IMG/VR virus record: IMGVR_UViG_3300030424_000005
Location: 1 to 20,690 of that record
Length of the DNA: 20,690 nucleotides
Reading direction: 5' to 3' (one strand)
Origin: a virus
The translations under genes were made by a program, and so were the position numbers. The notes beneath the pieces are model-generated. The model was given only the letters and a program-made list of their open reading frames with translations. It was not told where the DNA came from and did not search any database. Positions 13,583-20,690 of this stretch are shown piece by piece; the stretch's first letter is position 1, and the number at the start of each line of letters is the position of its first letter.

Positions 13583-14338
13583 ATGCCGAGCACTGAGAAC
13601 TACTCTATCTTCAAGGCCGACGTGTTCCTCGGCCGGTATGGGTCCACCGACAAGAAGCACATCGGCAACGTCCCGGCGCTGTCGTATGCGCCCGAGGTCG
13701 AGACGCTGGAGCATTACAGTTCCATGGCCGGCGTGCGCGAAAAAGACGCCGAGGTGACGACCACCACGGCGGCCACCCTGTCCATGACCCTGGACGAAAT
13801 CACGTCCCGCGCCATCGCCATCGCCATGTTGGGCGAAGAGGTCGTTTACGAGCGCGTCGAGGCTGCCGGGCAAGTGGCTGTGTTCGAGGGCGTGAAGGCT
13901 GGCGACAAGTTGGCTCTGCCGCATGGCGTGGTGTCCGGTGTCACCATCACCGATGGCACCGCCGTTACCCCGGTGGACTACACCCTGACCACCCACTACA
14001 CCGTGGACGCGGCGGCCGGCGTCATCACCATCGTCGCCATCCCCGCCACCGCCGACGATACCGTTGAGGTGGCCTACGACGCCGACGCCATCGTGGCCGG
14101 CACCCGCAAGGTCATCAACCTGCTGGCCGACACCACCGCCGAATGGTCGCTGTTTTCTGTCGGCACCAACGACGTGGGCAAGCGCCTGCGCATCGAAGTT
14201 GGCCGCTTCAAGATCACCCCGTCCGGCGAACTCGGCCTCATCACCGATGAGTGGGCCACCCTGGAGGTCGAGGGCTCCGTGTTGCGCGACACCGCGACTC
14301 CCGGCTACCCGTTCGGCCGTGTGATCGAGTTGAATTAA
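13583..14338 (+). CDS. Major tail tube protein
   Basis: The 251-residue protein has the composition and order of a siphovirus tail tube subunit. The N-terminus reads NYSIFKADVFLGRYG, then GNVPALSYAPEVETLEHYSS. A Thr/Ala-rich part with VTTTTAATLSMTLDEIT (58-74) follows, then an insert of beta strands at about 90-165, and a C-terminal part ending YPFGRVIELN. The insert, rich in Thr, Val and Asp, may be a small surface domain of the Ig-like type found in many tail tubes. GGAGG (13571-13575) is seven bases before ATG 13583. Its TAA overlaps the next ATG. Confidence 0.85.
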   Translation: MPSTENYSIFKADVFLGRYGSTDKKHIGNVPALSYAPEVETLEHYSSMAGVREKDAEVTTTTAATLSMTLDEITSRAIAIAMLGEEVVYERVEAAGQVAVFEGVKAGDKLALPHGVVSGVTITDGTAVTPVDYTLTTHYTVDAAAGVITIVAIPATADDTVEVAYDADAIVAGTRKVINLLADTTAEWSLFSVGTNDVGKRLRIEVGRFKITPSGELGLITDEWATLEVEGSVLRDTATPGYPFGRVIELN

Positions 14339-14760
14339 TGGCAACCCTGCTCGACATCGTGCCGCAGACGCGCTCCGTGCCCGTCTGCGGCGTCAACCTG
14401 ACTGTGCAGGGCGTGGCCTTGCCGGATCTGGTGTCCATCGTCGTGCGCTTCCCGGCCTTGACCGGCGTCCTGTCCGGCAAGGGTGTGGATGTTACGGCCT
14501 TGGTCGGCTTGGGTCGCGAGGTCTGCGGTGCGGTCATTGCCGCCGCGACGGGCTGCCCTGGCAATCCCGAAGCCGAGGCCAAGGCCGCGTCCCTGCCGGC
14601 CATGACACAGGTGGACATCGTCGCCGCCGCCGTGGACCTGACCTTTCCGGGGGAGCCGGTGACGGTGGCGGTGGAACGCCTGGCCGCCATCGTCGCAAAT
14701 CTGGCCGGGGCAAGCAGCGAGACGGCCTCGAAGTCCTTGCCGAAGCGGCCGAAAGGCTGA
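14338..14760 (+). CDS. Tail assembly chaperone, N-terminal (G-like) product
   Basis: The true start is ATG 14338, overlapping the tail tube stop by one base. The frame extends further upstream only as a shadow of the tube gene. The 140-residue product has a strand-rich N-terminus, the LVSIVVRFPALTGVLSGKG part (residues 39-57), a helical middle, and a SETASKSLPKRPKG end at 14758-14760. Its place between tube and tape measure genes is that of the lambda G product, which holds the tape measure protein during tail assembly. Coding-quality sequence continues in the -1 frame past its stop. Confidence 0.7.
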   Translation: MATLLDIVPQTRSVPVCGVNLTVQGVALPDLVSIVVRFPALTGVLSGKGVDVTALVGLGREVCGAVIAAATGCPGNPEAEAKAASLPAMTQVDIVAAAVDLTFPGEPVTVAVERLAAIVANLAGASSETASKSLPKRPKG

Positions 14761-14933
14761 TCGCAGCCGGCCACCGTGACGCCCTGCACTACACGCCCCG
14801 GCAGATCGTGGCGTTCTCCACCTTGCTCGACAAACGCGAGCGGACGGAGCGGGCGGCGCGGTTTGCCGACATGGCGATGAGCCACCCGAACAAGGGCATC
14901 AAGAAGTACCTGGAGGGGCTGGCGAAGGGTTAG
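14721..14933 (+). CDS. Tail chaperone extension (T-like), probably by -1 frameshift
   Basis: In the frame one base back, the sequence is open past the upstream stop to TAG 14931-14933. It reads as real protein from about 14721: LEVLAEAAERLIAAGH, then DALHYTPRQIVAFSTLL, and a charged KRERTERAARF helix. It has no ATG, GTG or TTG at a usable position, so a -1 shift from the G-like gene is the simplest way to make it, as in lambda G-GT. No canonical X XXY YYZ heptamer is in register. The A run at CCG AAA GGC (14749-14757) is the only weak candidate. The start coordinate is approximate. Confidence 0.6.
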   Translation, partial: DGLEVLAEAAERLIAAGHRDALHYTPRQIVAFSTLLDKRERTERAARFADMAMSHPNKGIKKYLEGLAKG

Positions 14934-15229
14934 GCGTCGTCTTCGCCAAACAGCACTGCACGAATGCGGTCTATTTCATCGCTCGCTGCTTCGAGGTCGT
15001 TGCGGGCTTCATCGTAGATCGTATCGTCGTAGGCCCATTGGGAGAGCTTGTCTGCGGCCGCCGTCAGCGCGGCGCGTTCCGCTGTCGCGCGCAGGCCAAG
15101 GGAGATCAACTGGCGGATAGCCTCGGCCCGGCTTGGGACGCGGTTCGTAAAGCGCCACTCGTCGATAGCGTCCGCCTCAGAGGCAGTCACCATGATCGGC
15201 AGCCGGACATCCTTAGGCTCGTCCATCAT
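14930..15229 (-). CDS. Ribbon-helix-helix protein with long C-terminal helix, 99 aa
   Basis: On the minus strand, start 15229 (ATG; 15226 is a tandem alternative) to TAA at 14930. The N-terminal part, VRLPIMVTASEADAIDEW (residues 8-25), then RVPSRAEAIRQLISLGL (29-45), is a clear ribbon-helix-helix DNA-binding fold. The long acidic helix-rich remainder has spaced Leu/Ile/Ala and could form a coiled coil, as in P22 Mnt. The start overlaps the end of the next upstream minus gene by 17 bases, so they are coupled. Its stop overlaps that of the T-like chaperone gene (convergent). Confidence 0.8.
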   Translation of the reverse strand: MMDEPKDVRLPIMVTASEADAIDEWRFTNRVPSRAEAIRQLISLGLRATAERAALTAAADKLSQWAYDDTIYDEARNDLEAASDEIDRIRAVLFGEDDA

Positions 15230-15401
15230 TTTCCAAACTGCCCGGTGACTGCTCGCACTCAAGCCCGCGCAGAACGAGGCGGCGGACAGCTTCCGCGCGG
15301 GAGGGTAGGTCAGCCTGGACGCGGCGCCAGTCGTCAACGAGGCGCAGAAAATCAGGTGTTACCCGCATGTTAAAGGTTTCAGTCTTCTGCGCGTCAACCA
15401 T
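15213..15401 (-). CDS. Ribbon-helix-helix repressor, 62 aa (Mnt-like position)
   Basis: ATG 15401 is chosen. The frame is open further back to 15476, but that would cross the promoter and operator region. A GGTGG lies a few bases upstream of the start. Residues 9-14 (TFNMRV) would be the beta ribbon, PDFLRLVDDWRR helix A, and LPSRAEAVRRLVLRGL helix B. The QADLPSRAExVRRLV segment is nearly identical to the divergent gene at 15513, so the two are paralogues. It is the first gene of a leftward operon with the 99-residue RHH gene and lies beside the overlapping divergent promoters. Confidence 0.75.
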   Translation of the reverse strand: MVDAQKTETFNMRVTPDFLRLVDDWRRVQADLPSRAEAVRRLVLRGLECEQSPGSLENDGRA

Positions 15402-15435
15402 TCCTGCCACCGACTTCGTCAACGGGAAAAGTAGG

Positions 15436-15464
15436 CATGTATCACAAGCGTTGACGTGCCACAA
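15436..15464 (-). promoter_or_regulatory. Leftward promoter of the RHH pair
   Basis: Read on the minus strand, TTGTGG (15464-15459), 17 bases, then TACATG (15441-15436) with TG one base before it (15444-15443). RNA would start near 15429. Its -35 lies inside the first inverted repeat and overlaps the zone of the rightward promoter. Confidence 0.4.
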
Positions 15465-15479
15465 AGAAAGTGGCACCTT
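15451..15479 (+). promoter_or_regulatory. Rightward promoter of the RHH-antirepressor operon
   Basis: TTGACG (15451-15456), 17 bases, then CACCTT (15474-15479); RNA would start near 15486, 27 bases before ATG 15513. It differs by a single base in its two boxes from the candidate late promoter at 3357-3385. Its spacer is filled by an inverted repeat. Confidence 0.55.
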
Positions 15480-15492
15480 GCCACTTGTGGCA
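15456..15492. promoter_or_regulatory. Two perfect inverted repeats: likely RHH operators
   Basis: Site 1 is GTGCCAC (15456-15462), seven bases, GTGGCAC (15470-15476). Site 2 is TGCCAC-TT-GTGGCA (15479-15492), a perfect palindrome. The same half-site TGCCAC thus occurs four times in 37 bases. Site 1 fills the space between -35 and -10 of the rightward promoter, and also covers the leftward -35. Site 2 covers the rightward -10 and start. Confidence 0.65.
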
Positions 15493-15512
15493 CATCGGTA
15501 CGGAGCAATCTA

Positions 15513-15668
15513 ATGGAGAGGACTTTCACGATGCGGGTTCCTGATGAGTTTGTTCGGAAGGTGGATGAGTTGCGACGGTCGCAGGCGGATCTTCCGAGCC
15601 GGGCAGAAATCGTCCGCCGCTTGGTCGAGAAGGCCACCTCTGAATCGGTGGCGCAGCACGCCGCTTAA
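15513..15668 (+). CDS. Arc-like ribbon-helix-helix protein, 51 aa
   Basis: ATG 15513 is set by GGAG (15502-15505), seven bases before it. The upstream extension crosses the operators. The 51-residue product is all RHH: TFTMRV (4-9) as ribbon, then helices at PDEFVRKVDELRR (10-22) and LPSRAEIVRRLVEKAT (26-41), with a short polar tail. Arc of P22 has 53 residues and the same plan. It is the first gene of the rightward operon that goes on to two antirepressor-like genes. It likely represses its own promoter through the inverted repeats (inference). Confidence 0.8.
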   Translation: MERTFTMRVPDEFVRKVDELRRSQADLPSRAEIVRRLVEKATSESVAQHAA

Positions 15669-15673
15669 TTATC

Positions 15674-15709
15674 GGCCCGACGTGGTGCTACCAACACCGC
15701 CGCCGGGCC
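15674..15709 (+). promoter_or_regulatory. Intercistronic hairpin between the RHH and Rha-like genes
   Basis: GGCCCG (15674-15679) pairs with CGGGCC (15704-15709), and inside it GGTG (15684-15687) pairs with CACC (15695-15698). No T tract follows. It lies six bases after the RHH stop and could limit translation or transcription of the next gene. In P22 this intercistronic place holds the sar antisense RNA. Confidence 0.4.
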
Positions 15710-15733
15710 TAACCAGACACATGGAGAAGACCC

Positions 15734-16765
15734 ATGCAACAGGCTGAGAACAACCATATACCGCAGAGCGCGGGAATTCCTGTGGAAAAAGCGCACTGTT
15801 TTTCACCGGGCGCCCTGGCCGTGATCGACGGTGAGCCGCGCATGAAGGACACCGACATTGGCGCCGCTCTGGGCATGGCGCAGCCGCGCAACATCCGGGC
15901 CATCATCGACAAGAATCGGGCGGAACTGGAGCGGTATGGATTGGTGCACGTGGCGCGTTCGCCAATCACAAGCGGGAAGGGCCGCGTTCAGGAAGTCACC
16001 ACCTACCACCTGAACGAAGGCCAAGCGATCCTGCTGTGCATGTTCAGCCGCACGCCGACCGCCGCCGCCGTCCGTCACCAGATCGTGACCGTGTTCATGG
16101 CGTGGCGCCGGGGGGAACTGGAGAAGGTGCCGGTCAAGGCGCATACCCGGCGGAAGGCTGCCCCGAAGGTTGCCCACCCTGCGGCCTCCAAGGAAGGTGT
16201 CGCGGTCGCAGTGATCGGCGGCGAGGTCGTCACCTTCGACACGAACGACTACGACCTCCGTGATGGCGATTGGGCGGTCGTCCTGATGGGCAGCAAGTTC
16301 GCCAAGATGCAGTTGACCGAAACTCAGGGCCGCAGCAACTCCGGGTGGGAGTCGCCGCGCCGGGGCTGGGTGGACTACACCAGCGGGTACTATGGCAGCG
16401 GGCCGCGCGAATACGCAGAGGTGAGGATCGTGGGGCGTATGCTGTCGGCTGTCCGCGCGACCGCCGCACCCGCGATTGCCGCACCCCAGGTGGACGCGGC
16501 CCGCTTCGACCCGAAAAACCGGCATCTGGTGTCGTTCGGTTCGGACGGGAAGATGGAGATCAAGGCTGTTGGCCCGGACGCCTGCGTCGTGAGCGGCGCC
16601 AACGAAACCAACCTCTACACCTTCCTGCGGGAGTTCGTGCCGGTGGAAAACCTGCCCGTCGCCTTTGACGTCATCTGCCAGCGCATGAAGGCCCTGGCCT
16701 GCCGTGAACTGGGCAAAAAGAACAACGGCCGTCACCTGTCGGTCGTGAAGCAGGCGGTGGCGTAG
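15734..16765 (+). CDS. Phage antirepressor / Rha-like regulator, 343 aa
   Basis: The N-terminal domain (residues 35-127) has the plan of Rha / antirepressor-type phage regulators. DIGAALGMAQPRNIRAIIDK (41-60) is a helix-turn-helix-like part, then a NRAELERYGLV strand, a GKGRVQEVTTYHLNEGQAIL segment (81-100) and VRHQIVTVFMAW (113-124). A basic linker follows. Residues 165-241 have a VVTFDTND...RDGDWAVVLMG...EVRIVGRMLSAV order that recalls S24 repressor ends, but no Ser-Lys pair is certain. The C-terminus (250-343) is unassigned. GGAGA (15723-15727) precedes ATG 15734. It is second in the operon, the place of P22 ant. Confidence 0.75.
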   Translation: MQQAENNHIPQSAGIPVEKAHCFSPGALAVIDGEPRMKDTDIGAALGMAQPRNIRAIIDKNRAELERYGLVHVARSPITSGKGRVQEVTTYHLNEGQAILLCMFSRTPTAAAVRHQIVTVFMAWRRGELEKVPVKAHTRRKAAPKVAHPAASKEGVAVAVIGGEVVTFDTNDYDLRDGDWAVVLMGSKFAKMQLTETQGRSNSGWESPRRGWVDYTSGYYGSGPREYAEVRIVGRMLSAVRATAAPAIAAPQVDAARFDPKNRHLVSFGSDGKMEIKAVGPDACVVSGANETNLYTFLREFVPVENLPVAFDVICQRMKALACRELGKKNNGRHLSVVKQAVA

Positions 16766-16855
16766 ATCGCCAAACCTGAGCCGCCGCCTGCTCTCCCAAC
16801 CGGCCCCGTTGGCGCGGGGTCGATCTACCAACCGCCTGAAATGGAGGCAGTTAGC

Positions 16856-17761
16856 ATGGGCAATATGACCCACGTCCTGAATTACAACAACACTGAGATT
16901 CGCGCGGCCGGAGAACGGCTGAACATGACGGATATGTGGAAGGCAGCGGGAGCCGATCCTTCACGGAAGCCTGCCGAGTGGCTGCGCTCTGCTGATGCTG
17001 TTCGCTTCATCGAGTTTTTGGCCGAGACGATGGGAATAGAAGTGGGAAATTCCCAACTCCAATTGGTCAAGGTGTCGAAGGGCGGGCGTGGAATTGGGGG
17101 CTCCACTGCCGCCCACTGGCAGATCGGCCTTGCCTACGCCAAGTACCTGTCGCCCGAGTTCCATATGTGGTGCAACACGGTGGTCCGCGAGCGCATGGAA
17201 GGTCGGGGCGTTGCTGTCCCGGAGGTCGGTGAATTGGCGCGGCGCACCGATGGTATCGTGCGTACCACCATCCATAAGGTGACGGGAATCGAGCGGGCCG
17301 TTGAAGGTATCGGGACGGTGATGCGGCTGATGTCCGATGCTGTTACGGATCAGGACTCGCGCATCGGCCAGATTGAGCGGGCGCTGCTCGACACAGCCGA
17401 TATCGTCAAGACGCTGGTGGTCGCCAACGACCCGCGCGTTGCCGCCCTGAGTCGGGTGAGCCAAAAGGAACTCTTGGAAAAAGCGAAAGTGCCGAGCAAG
17501 GGGCGATCTTCCATCAACCGCCGGTTCGCGTACCATCTGCCGCGCTACGCGATTTCCAACGGCGTGTTGCCGGACAGGTGCCCGCACTCCGGCACGTTGC
17601 TGTACCCGCGCGACTTGGCCGACCGCTTCATGAAGGAGAAGGGCAGCGGGTGGGTGCGCGACCACATGGCAAAGGTTTTCGGCCAGGGAGTCCTTCAGTT
17701 TCCCGACCGCCGCAGTGGGCCGCCGCAGCCGGAAGGTGTTGGCGAAGGGCTATCTACATAG
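16856..17761 (+). CDS. KilA-N domain protein, 301 aa
   Basis: ATG 16856 is used, eight bases after GGAGG (16843-16847). The in-frame ATG at 16841 overlaps that site. Residues 1-115 form a KilA-N domain with NMTDMWKAAG (23-32), KPAEWLRS (38-45) and HWQIGLAYAKYLSPEFHMW (87-105). A helical linker rich in charged residues (about 120-215) could be a coiled coil, followed by a small C-terminal domain with LLYPRDLADRFMKEKG. KilA-N proteins are DNA-binding phage regulators or antirepressors. The stop is overlapped by 12 bases by the convergent minus-strand gene. Confidence 0.85.
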   Translation: MGNMTHVLNYNNTEIRAAGERLNMTDMWKAAGADPSRKPAEWLRSADAVRFIEFLAETMGIEVGNSQLQLVKVSKGGRGIGGSTAAHWQIGLAYAKYLSPEFHMWCNTVVRERMEGRGVAVPEVGELARRTDGIVRTTIHKVTGIERAVEGIGTVMRLMSDAVTDQDSRIGQIERALLDTADIVKTLVVANDPRVAALSRVSQKELLEKAKVPSKGRSSINRRFAYHLPRYAISNGVLPDRCPHSGTLLYPRDLADRFMKEKGSGWVRDHMAKVFGQGVLQFPDRRSGPPQPEGVGEGLST

Positions 17762-18274
17762 CCCGTGGCCGGCCCATTTTTTGCAATAGTCCGCCAGCAT
17801 CTGCACTCCTAGCGAGGTGTTGACGGTCACGGTAGCCAAGCCTCCGATGCGGTATGTTGGCATGTTGTCCCACTGGACGCGGCGCAGGTCTGCGGCGCGG
17901 AATACGAGGAAGAACACTTGTTGTTCCCCGGCATTGCCGAAGCGGTCTAAAGTCTGTGCGACGGCCCGTAGAACTAAACTGTTCACATCGACGTGCTCGT
18001 CTGGTCTTTCCTCAAACATCCACCGAGCCACGTCTTGGGCGGTTATGAGGGCGCTTGTGACGTCGAGGTTGCCACCGTCAATGCTGGACATGGCGGCGTA
18101 GACCGTCACGACGCCTTTGTCGCGCGTCACCAAACTGATCTTGCTGCTAACCTCTTCAATCGACTGAGGACCAGCCCCGGAGCAGGCCTTCAGTAGGCCG
18201 ATGACGATAGCAATTAACACAATGACGATTAGGCAGCCTTCTGCGGCCTGCCGGTTCTGACTACTCTCACTCAC
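17750..18274 (-). CDS. Membrane-anchored protein, possible exclusion factor
   Basis: The frame is open on the minus strand back to 18505, but that part is antisense to the tape measure gene. GTG 18274 is taken as start because a GAGGGGG lies seven bases upstream of it. The 174-residue product has a short polar N-terminus (1-13), one strong membrane helix (14-30) and a CSGAG just after it that is close to a lipobox but has Lys at -2. A soluble domain of about 140 residues would lie outside the cytoplasm. No family is recognised. A single leftward, self-standing gene of this kind in a late operon is typical of a prophage-expressed moron, such as a superinfection exclusion protein (inference). 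Confidence 0.6.
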   Translation of the reverse strand: MSESSQNRQAAEGCLIVIVLIAIVIGLLKACSGAGPQSIEEVSSKISLVTRDKGVVTVYAAMSSIDGGNLDVTSALITAQDVARWMFEERPDEHVDVNSLVLRAVAQTLDRFGNAGEQQVFFLVFRAADLRRVQWDNMPTYRIGGLATVTVNTSLGVQMLADYCKKWAGHGLCR

Positions 18275-18366: not shown

Positions 18367-20690
18367 ATGTCCCGCGACTTCCTGCTGAAAACGTCCATTG
18401 CCGGCGGCGATGACGTGGCCGCCTCGCTCCAGAAGATCGGTGCGTCTGGTCGCAAGGCGTTTGAGGACATTCAGAAGGCTGTGGGCAAGTTCGGTGCCGC
18501 TGCATCAGTCGCCTCGCAGGCCCTGCGCGCTCAGATGGACGCCCAGGCCAAGGCGGCGGTCGAGGCTGCCGAGTTGGAGGGCGCCTATAAGAAGCTGGGC
18601 GTCACGTCCTCCAAGTCGGCGGCGGAGCAGCGCGCGGCCTACGTTTCCGCATACGAGAAGATCCGCGACAGCGGCACGGCCACCGCCGGGCAAATTTACG
18701 CCGCGTGGCAGAAGATGTCTCAGGCCGTCAGCCGCCTTGATATCGAGATCGATACTCAGGGAATATCCGACGCTGCGGAGAAGGCTGCCGAAGCCACGGC
18801 GGCGGCGTACCAGAAGCTCGACATCACGTCTGTTGCGTCGGCTGAGGACCAAAAGCGCGCCTATATCGAGGCCTACGAGCGAATCAAGGCCGATGCCAAC
18901 GCCACCGCCGGGCAAGTCTATGCGGCGTGGCAGAAGATGTCCGAAGCGGTTAATCGCCTGGATATTGAGATCGATACGCAGGGCGTTGTCGATGAGGCCG
19001 CTAAGGCTGCCGCTGAGGCCGAGAAGGCCGCAGCGGACACGGCGGAGGCGTACCGGACTCTTGGCGTCACCAGCACCAAGCAAGTTCAGGCGCAGCGTGC
19101 GGCCTACATCGAAGCCTATGAGCGCATCCGCGACAGCGGCGAAGCGACGGCTGAGCAGCTTATGGCGGCGTGGAAGAAGATGGACGCCGAGGTCGGCCGC
19201 CTGGATGGTCGGCTTGCCGCCATCCCGAGCCGTCTGGAGCGCATCCAGGCGAGTGCGGCCAAGATCGGAGAATCGTTCACACGCATCGGGCAGTCCATGT
19301 CCCTTGGCGTGACCGCGCCCATCGTCGCGGCCGGCGGCTTCACCCTCAAGACTGCTGCCGACTTCGAAACGGCGATGAACCGCATTAATGCAATCGTCAA
19401 CCCGACCGAAGCGCAGTTTGCGCAGATCCGCGACACCGTCAAGGACCTGGGTGCTAGCACGAAGTTTACCGCGACCCAGGCGGCAGACGCATTCACCCTG
19501 TTGGGTGCGGCCGGCCTGACCGTGGATCAAGCCCTGAGTGCGCTGCCCAAGACGCTCCAGCTTGCGGCTGCTGGTGAATTGCAGCTTGCCGAGGCGGCGG
19601 AAATCTCCACCAAAATCATCGCTGGCTTCCGGCTTGGCGTGGACGATCTTGGCCGCGTCAACGATGTTCTCGCCCAGGCTGCCGTCGATTCTAGCGCCGA
19701 CATCAAAGACCTTGCTGCGGCAATGCGCGATGCTGGCCCAGCCGCCGCTGCCGTTGGTTACAGCCTGGAAAGCACCGTAGCCACCCTGGCCGTGTTCGCC
19801 AATAACGGCATCGTCGGCGAAGTCGCGTCCACCGCTTTCGCGGGGGGGCTGTCTCGCCTACTTAAGCCGACCAAGGAGGTCCGCGACGGACTTGCGGAGC
19901 TTGGTCTCAAGATCAGCGACCTTCGGGGCGTTGACGGCAATCTGTTGCCCATGTCCGAGATTCTGCAAAAGCTGACCGATGGAGGCGTTGATGCCGCTGC
20001 CGCGCTGAAGATCTTCGGCGAAGAAGCAGGGCGAAAGATGATCGCCCTGATTGGCGGCGGCTCCAAGGCCCTGGCTGATATGGAGCAAGGGCTGTTGGCG
20101 GTCGATGGCGCCACCGAGACGATGGCCGAAAAGATGAATCGTGGCGCCAAAGCTGGCGTGCTGGGCCTGCTATCCGCAATGGGCGACCTGATGATCGCTA
20201 TTGGTGATAGCGGCCTGCTGGGGGCGTTCACGGTCGTGACTATCGCGGTCACGGAGTTTGTCCGCTGGATGGCCGATGCGCCGCTGGTCGTCATGGCGGT
20301 TGCCAGCGGCCTTGCCGCCCTGGCCGCCACCATTGGTCCGTTCCTGATCGCCCTTGGCCTCATGTCCAAGGGTGTTGCCTTTGCCGTCACCGGGTTTACC
20401 ACCTTGAAGGCGGGCGCAATCGCACTGTCCGCTCGCCTGGTTGCGTTGCGCGCTGCTGTGGCGGCCGTCAATATCGCCATGTACGCCAACCCTGTTGGCC
20501 TCATCATCGGCGGAATCGTCCTGTTGGGCGCGGTTGTTGCCGCCCTCGTGGTCGATTGGGACGACCTCAAGCGGGCCATCGGCTTGACTGTTGACGAGTC
20601 CGTCGAGGGTGCCACTGAGGCCGCCGACGCGGCTGCGGACAGCATCAAGACCGTCTCGGCCGCTGCCCAAGAGGCCGCCGTCGAAGCCGC
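18367..20690 (+). CDS. Tail tape measure protein, TP901-type core (partial, no 3' end)
   Basis: ATG 18367 lies eight bases after AAGGAG (18353-18358) and the frame is open to the right edge, giving 774 residues so far. Residues 73-146, 147-227 and 228 to about 283 are three imperfect tandem repeats of the type AYxxLGVTS...AAYxxAYExIxD...AAWxKM. From about 300 the TP901-type core appears: FTRIGQSMSLGVTAPIV, TAADFETAMNRIN, LGASTKFTATQAADAF. Three or so hydrophobic stretches follow (about 610-735), normal for this family. The protein sets tail length. The gene is separated from the chaperone genes, its usual neighbours, by a 3.4-kb cassette. Confidence 0.93.
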   Translation, partial: MSRDFLLKTSIAGGDDVAASLQKIGASGRKAFEDIQKAVGKFGAAASVASQALRAQMDAQAKAAVEAAELEGAYKKLGVTSSKSAAEQRAAYVSAYEKIRDSGTATAGQIYAAWQKMSQAVSRLDIEIDTQGISDAAEKAAEATAAAYQKLDITSVASAEDQKRAYIEAYERIKADANATAGQVYAAWQKMSEAVNRLDIEIDTQGVVDEAAKAAAEAEKAAADTAEAYRTLGVTSTKQVQAQRAAYIEAYERIRDSGEATAEQLMAAWKKMDAEVGRLDGRLAAIPSRLERIQASAAKIGESFTRIGQSMSLGVTAPIVAAGGFTLKTAADFETAMNRINAIVNPTEAQFAQIRDTVKDLGASTKFTATQAADAFTLLGAAGLTVDQALSALPKTLQLAAAGELQLAEAAEISTKIIAGFRLGVDDLGRVNDVLAQAAVDSSADIKDLAAAMRDAGPAAAAVGYSLESTVATLAVFANNGIVGEVASTAFAGGLSRLLKPTKEVRDGLAELGLKISDLRGVDGNLLPMSEILQKLTDGGVDAAAALKIFGEEAGRKMIALIGGGSKALADMEQGLLAVDGATETMAEKMNRGAKAGVLGLLSAMGDLMIAIGDSGLLGAFTVVTIAVTEFVRWMADAPLVVMAVASGLAALAATIGPFLIALGLMSKGVAFAVTGFTTLKAGAIALSARLVALRAAVAAVNIAMYANPVGLIIGGIVLLGAVVAALVVDWDDLKRAIGLTVDESVEGATEAADAAADSIKTVSAAAQEAAVEA

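Follow-up and report, generated by a model that had tools for sequence, protein, structure and literature searches.

A putative RHH-controlled antirepressor cassette upstream of a phage tape measure gene, probably assembled from two such cassettes

The stretch of DNA analyzed here (the window) comprises 20,690 nt of the viral record IMGVR_UViG_3300030424_000005 (positions 1 to 20,690), whose contig is 39 kb long. Between its tail chaperone and tape measure protein (TMP) genes lie, in order, two leftward RHH genes, a divergent RHH gene, a Bro-N/Rha-type gene and a KilA-N gene, which probably form a secondary RHH-controlled antirepressor cassette ("ant moron") built from two such cassettes. This reading draws on the gene order, the protein families, a cluster of operator-like half-sites, a -35-like box and the recurrence of related cassettes before TMP genes, together with interchangeable effector genes, relatives carrying each half and a tandem pair in a genome of the host's family. 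We call the cassette secondary because the prophage has a separate CI/Cro-like region. The features of the locus are as follows.

14338-14760, + strand: tail assembly chaperone (pre-tape-measure protein), left flank (PF23789, 43.9 bits; phrog_5260, tail)
14930-15229, - strand: RHH1, 99 aa, with a C-terminal extension, in the Mnt-like position (phrog_4738, 3e-7)
15213-15401, - strand: RHH2, 62 aa, co-directional with RHH1 (phrog_4738, 4.6e-6)
15402-15512, no strand: divergent control region, 111 bp (five GTGGCA/TGCCAC half-sites)
15450-15455, + strand: TTGACG, -35-like box of the rightward operon (TTGAC recurs in inter-RHH regions)
15457-15475, no strand: candidate operator 1, TGCCAC-N7-GTGGCA, directly 3' of the -35-like box
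15479-15492, no strand: candidate operator 2, TGCCAC-TT-GTGGCA, the sole exact match in the window
15513-15668, + strand: RHH3, 51 aa, in the Arc-like position (RHH_1, 20.7 bits; start codon checked)
15674-15709, + strand: G+C-rich hairpin without a T run, between RHH3 and the Bro-N/Rha-type gene (repeat search; fold z = -2.6 for the region)
15734-16765, + strand: Bro-N/Rha-type gene, 343 aa (PHROG anti-repressor families; Foldseek BFVD)
16856-17761, + strand: KilA-N gene, 301 aa, ORF open from 16841 (PF04383, phrog_129)
17750-18274, - strand: 174-aa ORF with an N-terminal hydrophobic segment (translation; phrog_25219, 8e-5, unknown function)
18367-20690 (continuing past the window end), + strand: TMP, right flank (phrog_1533, 8e-91; 1335 aa in the contig)

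An earlier note on this DNA had described two leftward RHH genes, a 51-aa divergent RHH gene, a Rha-like gene and a KilA-N gene set between tail chaperone and TMP genes; all five genes are present, and the profile matches listed above bear out both flanks. The palindromes that it placed between divergent promoters are likewise there, in the form of an exact TGCCACTTGTGGCA at 15479-15492 and the five half-sites. The RHH1 and RHH2 genes overlap by 17 nt.

All three RHH proteins match phrog_4738, labeled "transcriptional repressor" (RHH3 at 1.1e-4). With Pfam RHH_1, RHH3 scores barely above the cut-off (20.7 versus 20.5 bits) and RHH1 falls under it (16.4 bits), and the Pfam search with RHH2 returned no match. 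Membership of the ordinary Arc family was ruled out, as none of the window RHHs matched the Arc/Mnt family PF03869 at E<=1; this family is matched by the cassette RHHs of Pkon1, L057 and L109 and, among 385 surveyed genomes of the class, by proteins in 17. RHH2 and RHH3 share 71% identity across 35 aa of the strand-helix segment, and relatives of RHH2 at 42-72% identity occur in 34 other viral loci. Because their DNA-contacting strands are near-identical, the GTGGCA half-sites separating the divergent promoters are most likely shared targets of RHH2 and RHH3; RHH1, with a different contact strand, may bind elsewhere.

The half-sites in the divergent gap lie at 15405, 15457, 15470, 15479 and 15487. 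Five sites in 111 bp, versus 23 across the rest of the 39-kb contig, amount to clustering well beyond chance (Poisson P ~8e-9, uncorrected for a motif chosen after the fact), and among the top-ranked places of the contig for GTGGCA/TGCCAC no other 112-bp stretch had more than one site. The region has a G+C content of 52%, compared with 57-66% in the flanking genes. A sigma-70 scan found no full promoter; forward TTGAC occurs in 19 of 27 inter-RHH regions (21 sites versus 2.5 expected). The DNA preceding RHH2-type relatives shows no enrichment of GTGGCA; this fits diverging specificities, but the motif gains no support from comparison. Of the divergent gaps tested, only some contain a repeated half-site or strong dyad.

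Both large proteins resemble phage antirepressors. The KilA-N protein, whose start at 16856 is favored by a GGAGG (the ORF spans 16841-17761), matches PF04383 at 45.5 bits against a gathering score of 23.8 and phrog_129 at 1e-27, a family labeled "transcriptional regulator" rather than anti-repressor; its predicted structure is weak (pLDDT 63), with no significant PDB match. The 343-aa protein had been called Rha-like, a label favored by its fold and its PHROG matches and weakened by its Pfam scores. Its predicted structure, reliable only for about residues 21-130, matches phage regulatory, antirepressor, Rha and Bro-N proteins (Foldseek BFVD, best E 7e-5), and its sequence matches phrog_130, 63, 5060 and 245, "anti-repressor Ant" (1e-4 to 2e-3); Bro-N PF02498 (21.2 versus 25.6 bits) and pRha PF09669 (18.7 versus 29.9 bits) both stay under their cut-offs. 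To this Bro-N/Rha-type N-terminal domain is joined a C-terminal domain, predicted to be beta-rich, that stands alone next to KilA-N in phiAX1 (L008) and L154. Sequence searches for solved relatives of the two proteins returned none. One family, phrog_2812, joins a KilA-N region, which the window protein matches, to a C-terminal half matched by the P22-type Ant of phage Oslo.

The earlier note knew of no such cassette between chaperone and TMP genes; the arrangement is in fact recurrent and annotated in many phages, SPN3UB and Pkon1 among them. Immediately 5' of the TMP gene, a divergent RHH pair accompanied by one or two genes of antirepressor type is found in at least eight annotated phages (Salmonella SPN3UB and Oslo, Erwinia Midgardsormr38, Pseudomonas PS-1, Klebsiella KPC3phi13.1, Acinetobacter Ab105-2phi, and Paracoccus Pkon1 and Pyei1). 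Metagenome and genome scans added seven further cases in which an RHH pair and KilA-N precede a TMP gene, the TMPs belonging to several PHROG families. Divergent and co-directional RHH genes lie upstream in 26 of 138 distinct KilA-N loci, and in the 2.5 kb preceding KilA-N, RHHs are 23-fold denser than elsewhere, a ratio inflated by an RHH profile trained on cassette members. The gene after the RHH varies among cassettes (P22-type Ant, Bro-N, pRha+ANT/KilAC, KilA-N or the window type) and is of an antirepressor type in every case; elsewhere, cassettes of the same plan and position have true Arc-family RHHs (PF03869) and an annotated P22-type Ant. Judged from sequence comparison, RHH/antirepressor cassettes before TMP genes form a common but little-discussed class, of which the window, with its divergent RHHs and antirepressor-type genes between chaperone and TMP, is one example. 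Particular to the window are RHHs outside the Pfam Arc family, the two leftward RHHs, and the Bro-N/Rha and KilA-N effectors.

A merger of two cassettes accounts better for the doubled leftward RHH and the two antirepressor-type genes than does the elaboration of a single one. Locus L233 has an RHH2-type gene, a Bro-N/Rha-type gene (44% identity to the 343-aa protein over 164 aa) and a TMP gene, and L012 has an RHH1-type gene (50% identity between its leftward RHH and RHH1 over 28 aa), KilA-N and a TMP gene. In L222, a prophage locus in a genome of the host's family, two complete cassettes stand in tandem, Bro-N then KilA-N, the latter 41% identical to the window KilA-N over its full length. 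With relatives that have one half each and a tandem pair, the window cassette is best read as merged and was probably assembled from two RHH/antirepressor switches, although the single remaining rightward RHH means that a merger would need one loss. A search with the major tail protein found no close relative beyond the same phage in IMG/VR and one distant match, so no cassette-free relative could be aligned for an empty-site comparison.

The likeness to P22 immI proposed in the earlier note is well supported as an analogy of mechanism, and strict membership does not hold. The P22 "ant moron" contains mnt, arc, ant and sar, with sieA nearby, inside the late operon (PMC2629481). In P22 as in the window, divergent RHH repressor genes flank a common control region within a late operon and a gene of antirepressor type lies 3' of the rightward RHH (PMC2629481). 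The window differs in its two leftward RHHs, in RHHs that are not PF03869 members, in having Bro-N/Rha-like and KilA-N proteins where P22 has Ant, and in its site before the TMP gene rather than the tailspike gene. In a comparison with sar RNA, the 65-nt gap after RHH3 holds only the G+C-rich hairpin and gave no relevant Rfam match. Closer in layout are Midgardsormr38 (ORF16-19) and PS-1 (gp66-69), in which a tail tube or chaperone gene, a divergent pair and two antirepressors precede the TMP gene, but with a single leftward RHH, Arc-type RHHs and a P22-type Ant in first place. Oslo and SPN3UB have an Arc-like pair and Ant before the TMP gene and KilA-N at the left edge of the insertion, outside the RHH-led operon. 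Pkon1 (whose KilA-N is 49% identical to that of the window over the domain), Pyei1 and Psychrobacter phage Y8A, for which one leftward RHH only is listed, have an Arc-like RHH followed by KilA-N or KilAC/Rha and the TMP gene, but one effector and Arc-type RHHs (Y8A: PMC10434257). Paraburkholderia phage 437 (orf63-66) has a leftward Arc-domain gene, a rightward Arc, Ant and a second regulator, Roi, but is contractile-tailed (PMC5567305). L222 shares the side-by-side Bro-N and KilA-N effectors, whereas each of its cassettes has its own Arc-type RHH pair and they lie before a tail-fibre-type gene.

From this layout we infer repressor binding and a pattern of expression in which RHH2 and RHH3 on the GTGGCA half-sites, with RHH1, would keep the cassette low in the lysogen. 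Were repression to lapse, upon fresh infection of a cell lacking RHH protein or upon RHH loss during induction, the TTGAC-type promoter would fire and yield RHH3, as an autogenous brake, and the Bro-N/Rha-type and KilA-N proteins. These would inactivate or bypass the main CI-like repressor of the prophage, or the repressors of other phages, and lytic growth would be favored. That the target is not the cognate CI-like repressor but the repressors of other prophages, such that the cassette couples induction between prophages or overcomes the immunity of a different phage, we consider unlikely: a pair of unlike effectors would broaden the range of targets, and by inspection the cognate repressor looks S24-type and self-cleaving and may respond to SOS induction unaided by an antirepressor, but the sequence names no target. 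Such action is known for Salmonella prophage antirepressors, which act on the repressors of other prophages (PMC3121763; restated in PMC10432266).

The recurrence of the pre-TMP position in unrelated tails would also suit a moron that tunes late genes, in which RHH proteins at their operators, or transcription of the cassette, throttle late transcription into the TMP gene and set the ratio of TMP to tube protein, the large proteins being ordinary late or early regulators. We give this a low probability, as the same plan is found in front of tail-fibre-type genes or elsewhere in late regions (L008, L019, L222, GF-2, PfDIW6), adjoining early genes (JLK-2012) and beside an integrase (L020), so that the constant partner is an antirepressor-type gene and not TMP. 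RHH proteins are common antitoxins, the KilA-N protein has one weak PADLOC match (PDC-S22, 19.4 bits) and defence-like genes adjoin some related cassettes (L234, L254); nonetheless, a toxin-antitoxin element, which the earlier note had named as a reading that would undo its own, or a defence element is very improbable. Pfam, NCBIfam and PADLOC show no toxin family for any cassette gene, on which ground we rejected a toxin-antitoxin module, and the large genes are DNA-binding antirepressor types swapped between cassettes while the RHH frame is kept. More speculatively, and somewhat doubtfully, a mobile modular family may insert repeatedly before TMP genes in unrelated tails, freely exchanging repressor specificities and effectors; the window copy would then be a merged double, with each of its two antirepressors directed at a different repressor and with RHH operators that, in addition, control how much late transcription enters TMP.

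These comparisons suggest that the bipartite immunity of P22 is one member of a widespread antirepressor-moron class rather than an oddity, and that this class, in phages of alpha- and gammaproteobacteria, preferentially occupies the position before TMP. Annotations list these genes under scattered labels ("Arc-like," "partition protein ATPase," "hypothetical"), so that their likely roles in lysogeny and prophage crosstalk can readily be overlooked. Since the effectors (Ant, Bro-N, pRha/ANT, KilA-N) replace one another among cassettes, they allow KilA-N proteins to be tested directly for antirepressor activity.

The 174-aa leftward ORF (18274-17750) falls within the range covered by the earlier note and went unmentioned there; a tblastn search gave no phage match, and the ORF is possibly an exclusion-type moron.

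The window forms part of a 39-kb contig (G000:C246) that carries most of a prophage, and IMG/VR record UViG_3300027283_000004 represents the same phage. Along the contig run CI-like and Cro-like genes (a long way left of the window, the CI-like product having, as we read it, an S24-type region), early genes, terminase, portal, capsid, tail tube, chaperone, the cassette and the tape-measure protein (TMP) gene. Sequence and family checks confirmed the cassette genes and coordinates of an earlier note, beyond which one more leftward ORF (18274-17750) precedes the TMP gene:

14930-15229, minus strand: RHH1, ribbon-helix-helix (RHH) gene
15213-15401, minus strand: RHH2
15457-15475: dyad TGCCAC-N7-GTGGCA, candidate operator
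15479-15492: dyad TGCCAC-TT-GTGGCA, sole exact match within the window
15513-15668, plus strand: RHH3
15734-16765, plus strand: Bro-N/Rha-type gene (343 aa)
16856-17761, plus strand: KilA-N gene
17750-18274, minus strand: 174-aa ORF, hydrophobic segment at its N-terminus, between KilA-N and TMP

We searched annotated phages using an Arc-type RHH protein as query and inspected the matching records for gene order. The order tail tube/chaperone, leftward Arc, rightward Arc, antirepressor(s), TMP is shared by Salmonella phages SPN3UB and Oslo, Acinetobacter Ab105-2phi, Paracoccus Pyei1 and Pkon1, Klebsiella ST512-KPC3phi13.1 and, with two antirepressors, Erwinia Midgardsormr38 and Pseudomonas PS-1. 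This refutes the earlier note's claim that no such cassette was known between chaperone and TMP; the window carries a variant on an already known cassette plan, and its pre-TMP location is not itself new. For Psychrobacter Y8A, Arc-like and KilA-N genes are listed a short way upstream of TMP (PMC10434257), Paraburkholderia phage 437 has Arc/Arc/Ant/Roi (PMC5567305), and a late-operon "ant moron" was proposed for P22-like phages in 2008 (PMC2629481). No paper treating pre-TMP cassettes as a class was found in the literature searched, largely open-access papers. P22-type Mnt and Arc-like proteins match phrog_795 and phrog_2685 (locus L230 is also concerned), labelled "partition protein ATPase", a name that phage records also use; the label is misleading and conceals these cassettes.

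The plan recurs when GTDB genomes and IMG/VR are scanned with a KilA-N alignment (A1) as query. An RHH gene lay ≤2.5 kb upstream in 36 of 138 distinct KilA-N loci, with both a divergent and a co-directional RHH gene upstream in 26. RHH matches numbered 68 in 326 kb of upstream zone versus 12 in the other 1,350 kb of these loci, a ratio inflated by the training of the RHH profile on such cassette genes, which leaves orientation and order unaffected. A full RHH pair with KilA-N stands upstream of TMP in loci L005 (Pkon1), L012, L057, L075, L109, L110, L124 and L133 (TMP match weak), and partial pre-TMP versions occur in L010/L097 (where an HTH gene replaces the RHH), L016, L030, L115 and L116. 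The TMPs downstream belong to several PHROG families, and further cassettes, in other tail types, lie directly after TMP or upstream of tail-fibre-type genes. In a Thalassospira-type prophage (L224, 7123-9438), a KilA-N gene adjoins CI/Cro-like genes and is not in the tail operon; the related L227 (4220-5113) encodes a protein related to the Bro-N/Rha-type one of the window.

RHH2-type relatives were found in 34 other viral loci. In L233 such a gene is divergent from one whose product shares 44% identity over 164 aa with the Bro-N/Rha-type protein of the window, and a PF20155 TMP lies nearby. The RHH2-type gene is followed in L238 and L261 by Bro-N genes and then a long tape-measure-like ORF, and it lies upstream of a Bro-N gene in L254 and of a pRha+ANT gene in L234. 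Adjoining these RHH2-type cassettes, and read by eye, are a DNA methyltransferase and a GHKL-type ATPase (L234, 609-3685) and a TIR-type protein (L254, 2842-3633); the insertion sites may also gather defence genes.

Two further loci bear on how the window's gene set arose. L012 has a leftward RHH1-type gene and a related rightward RHH gene upstream of KilA-N and TMP, and L222, a prophage in another genome of the host's family, has two complete Arc-type cassettes in tandem, the first with Bro-N and the second with KilA-N, whose product shows 41% full-length identity to the window's KilA-N protein. The simplest account is that the window carries two merged cassettes, RHH2 pairing with the Bro-N/Rha-type gene and RHH1 with KilA-N, and RHH3 being the rightward repressor left over. 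phiAX1 and L154 also encode the 343-aa protein's C-terminal domain on its own, as a gene next to KilA-N.

The 111-bp RHH2-RHH3 gap holds five copies of GTGGCA/TGCCAC versus 23 in the remaining 39 kb (P about 8e-9, for a motif picked after inspection), and two pairs of the five make up the dyads listed above. The first dyad lies immediately downstream of a TTGACG box at 15450, reminiscent of P22, where the Arc operator is located within Pant. Forward TTGAC is present in 19 of 27 comparable inter-RHH gaps (21 sites observed vs 2.5 expected; P about 3e-13), mostly 40-80 nt upstream of the rightward RHH start. RHH2 and RHH3 likely share DNA specificity, since their strand-helix segments (TFNMRV/TFTMRV) are 71% identical; RHH1 diverges from both in this segment and has a longer C-terminal tail.

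On the favoured reading, the RHH proteins would keep the rightward operon silent in a lysogen, and escape from this repression would yield RHH3 and two antirepressor-type proteins that counteract the prophage's main repressor. The KilA-N protein can be argued to be a putative antirepressor because the same slot is filled by antirepressor-type genes of several kinds and because phrog_2812 joins an N-terminus matching the window's KilA-N region to a C-terminal half matching Oslo's P22-type Ant. The proposed likeness to P22 immI is supported as an analogy of mechanism; strict membership is not, as the window's RHH proteins did not match PF03869 in a Pfam search and its Ant type differs. Rivals to this repressor-antirepressor reading are that the cassette tunes expression of the TMP gene, that it acts in trans on other prophages, or that it has a toxin-antitoxin role, for which there is almost no support.

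Leftward genes immediately upstream of TMP recur (Pkon1 p57; 183 aa in L057; 211 aa in L110). P22's ant moron also carries sieA, so the 174-aa ORF may have an exclusion role. At the other end of the cassette, the last bases of the chaperone ORF (14338-14760) are shared with a -1 frame ORF (14757-14933), the arrangement of lambda G/GT. A programmed frameshift may occur there, but inspection by eye found no canonical slippery heptamer. A second Rha-like gene, also read by eye, lies at the prophage's far left (L002/L003; 547-1299 of the contig's reverse complement), so the prophage may carry three antirepressor-type proteins in all.
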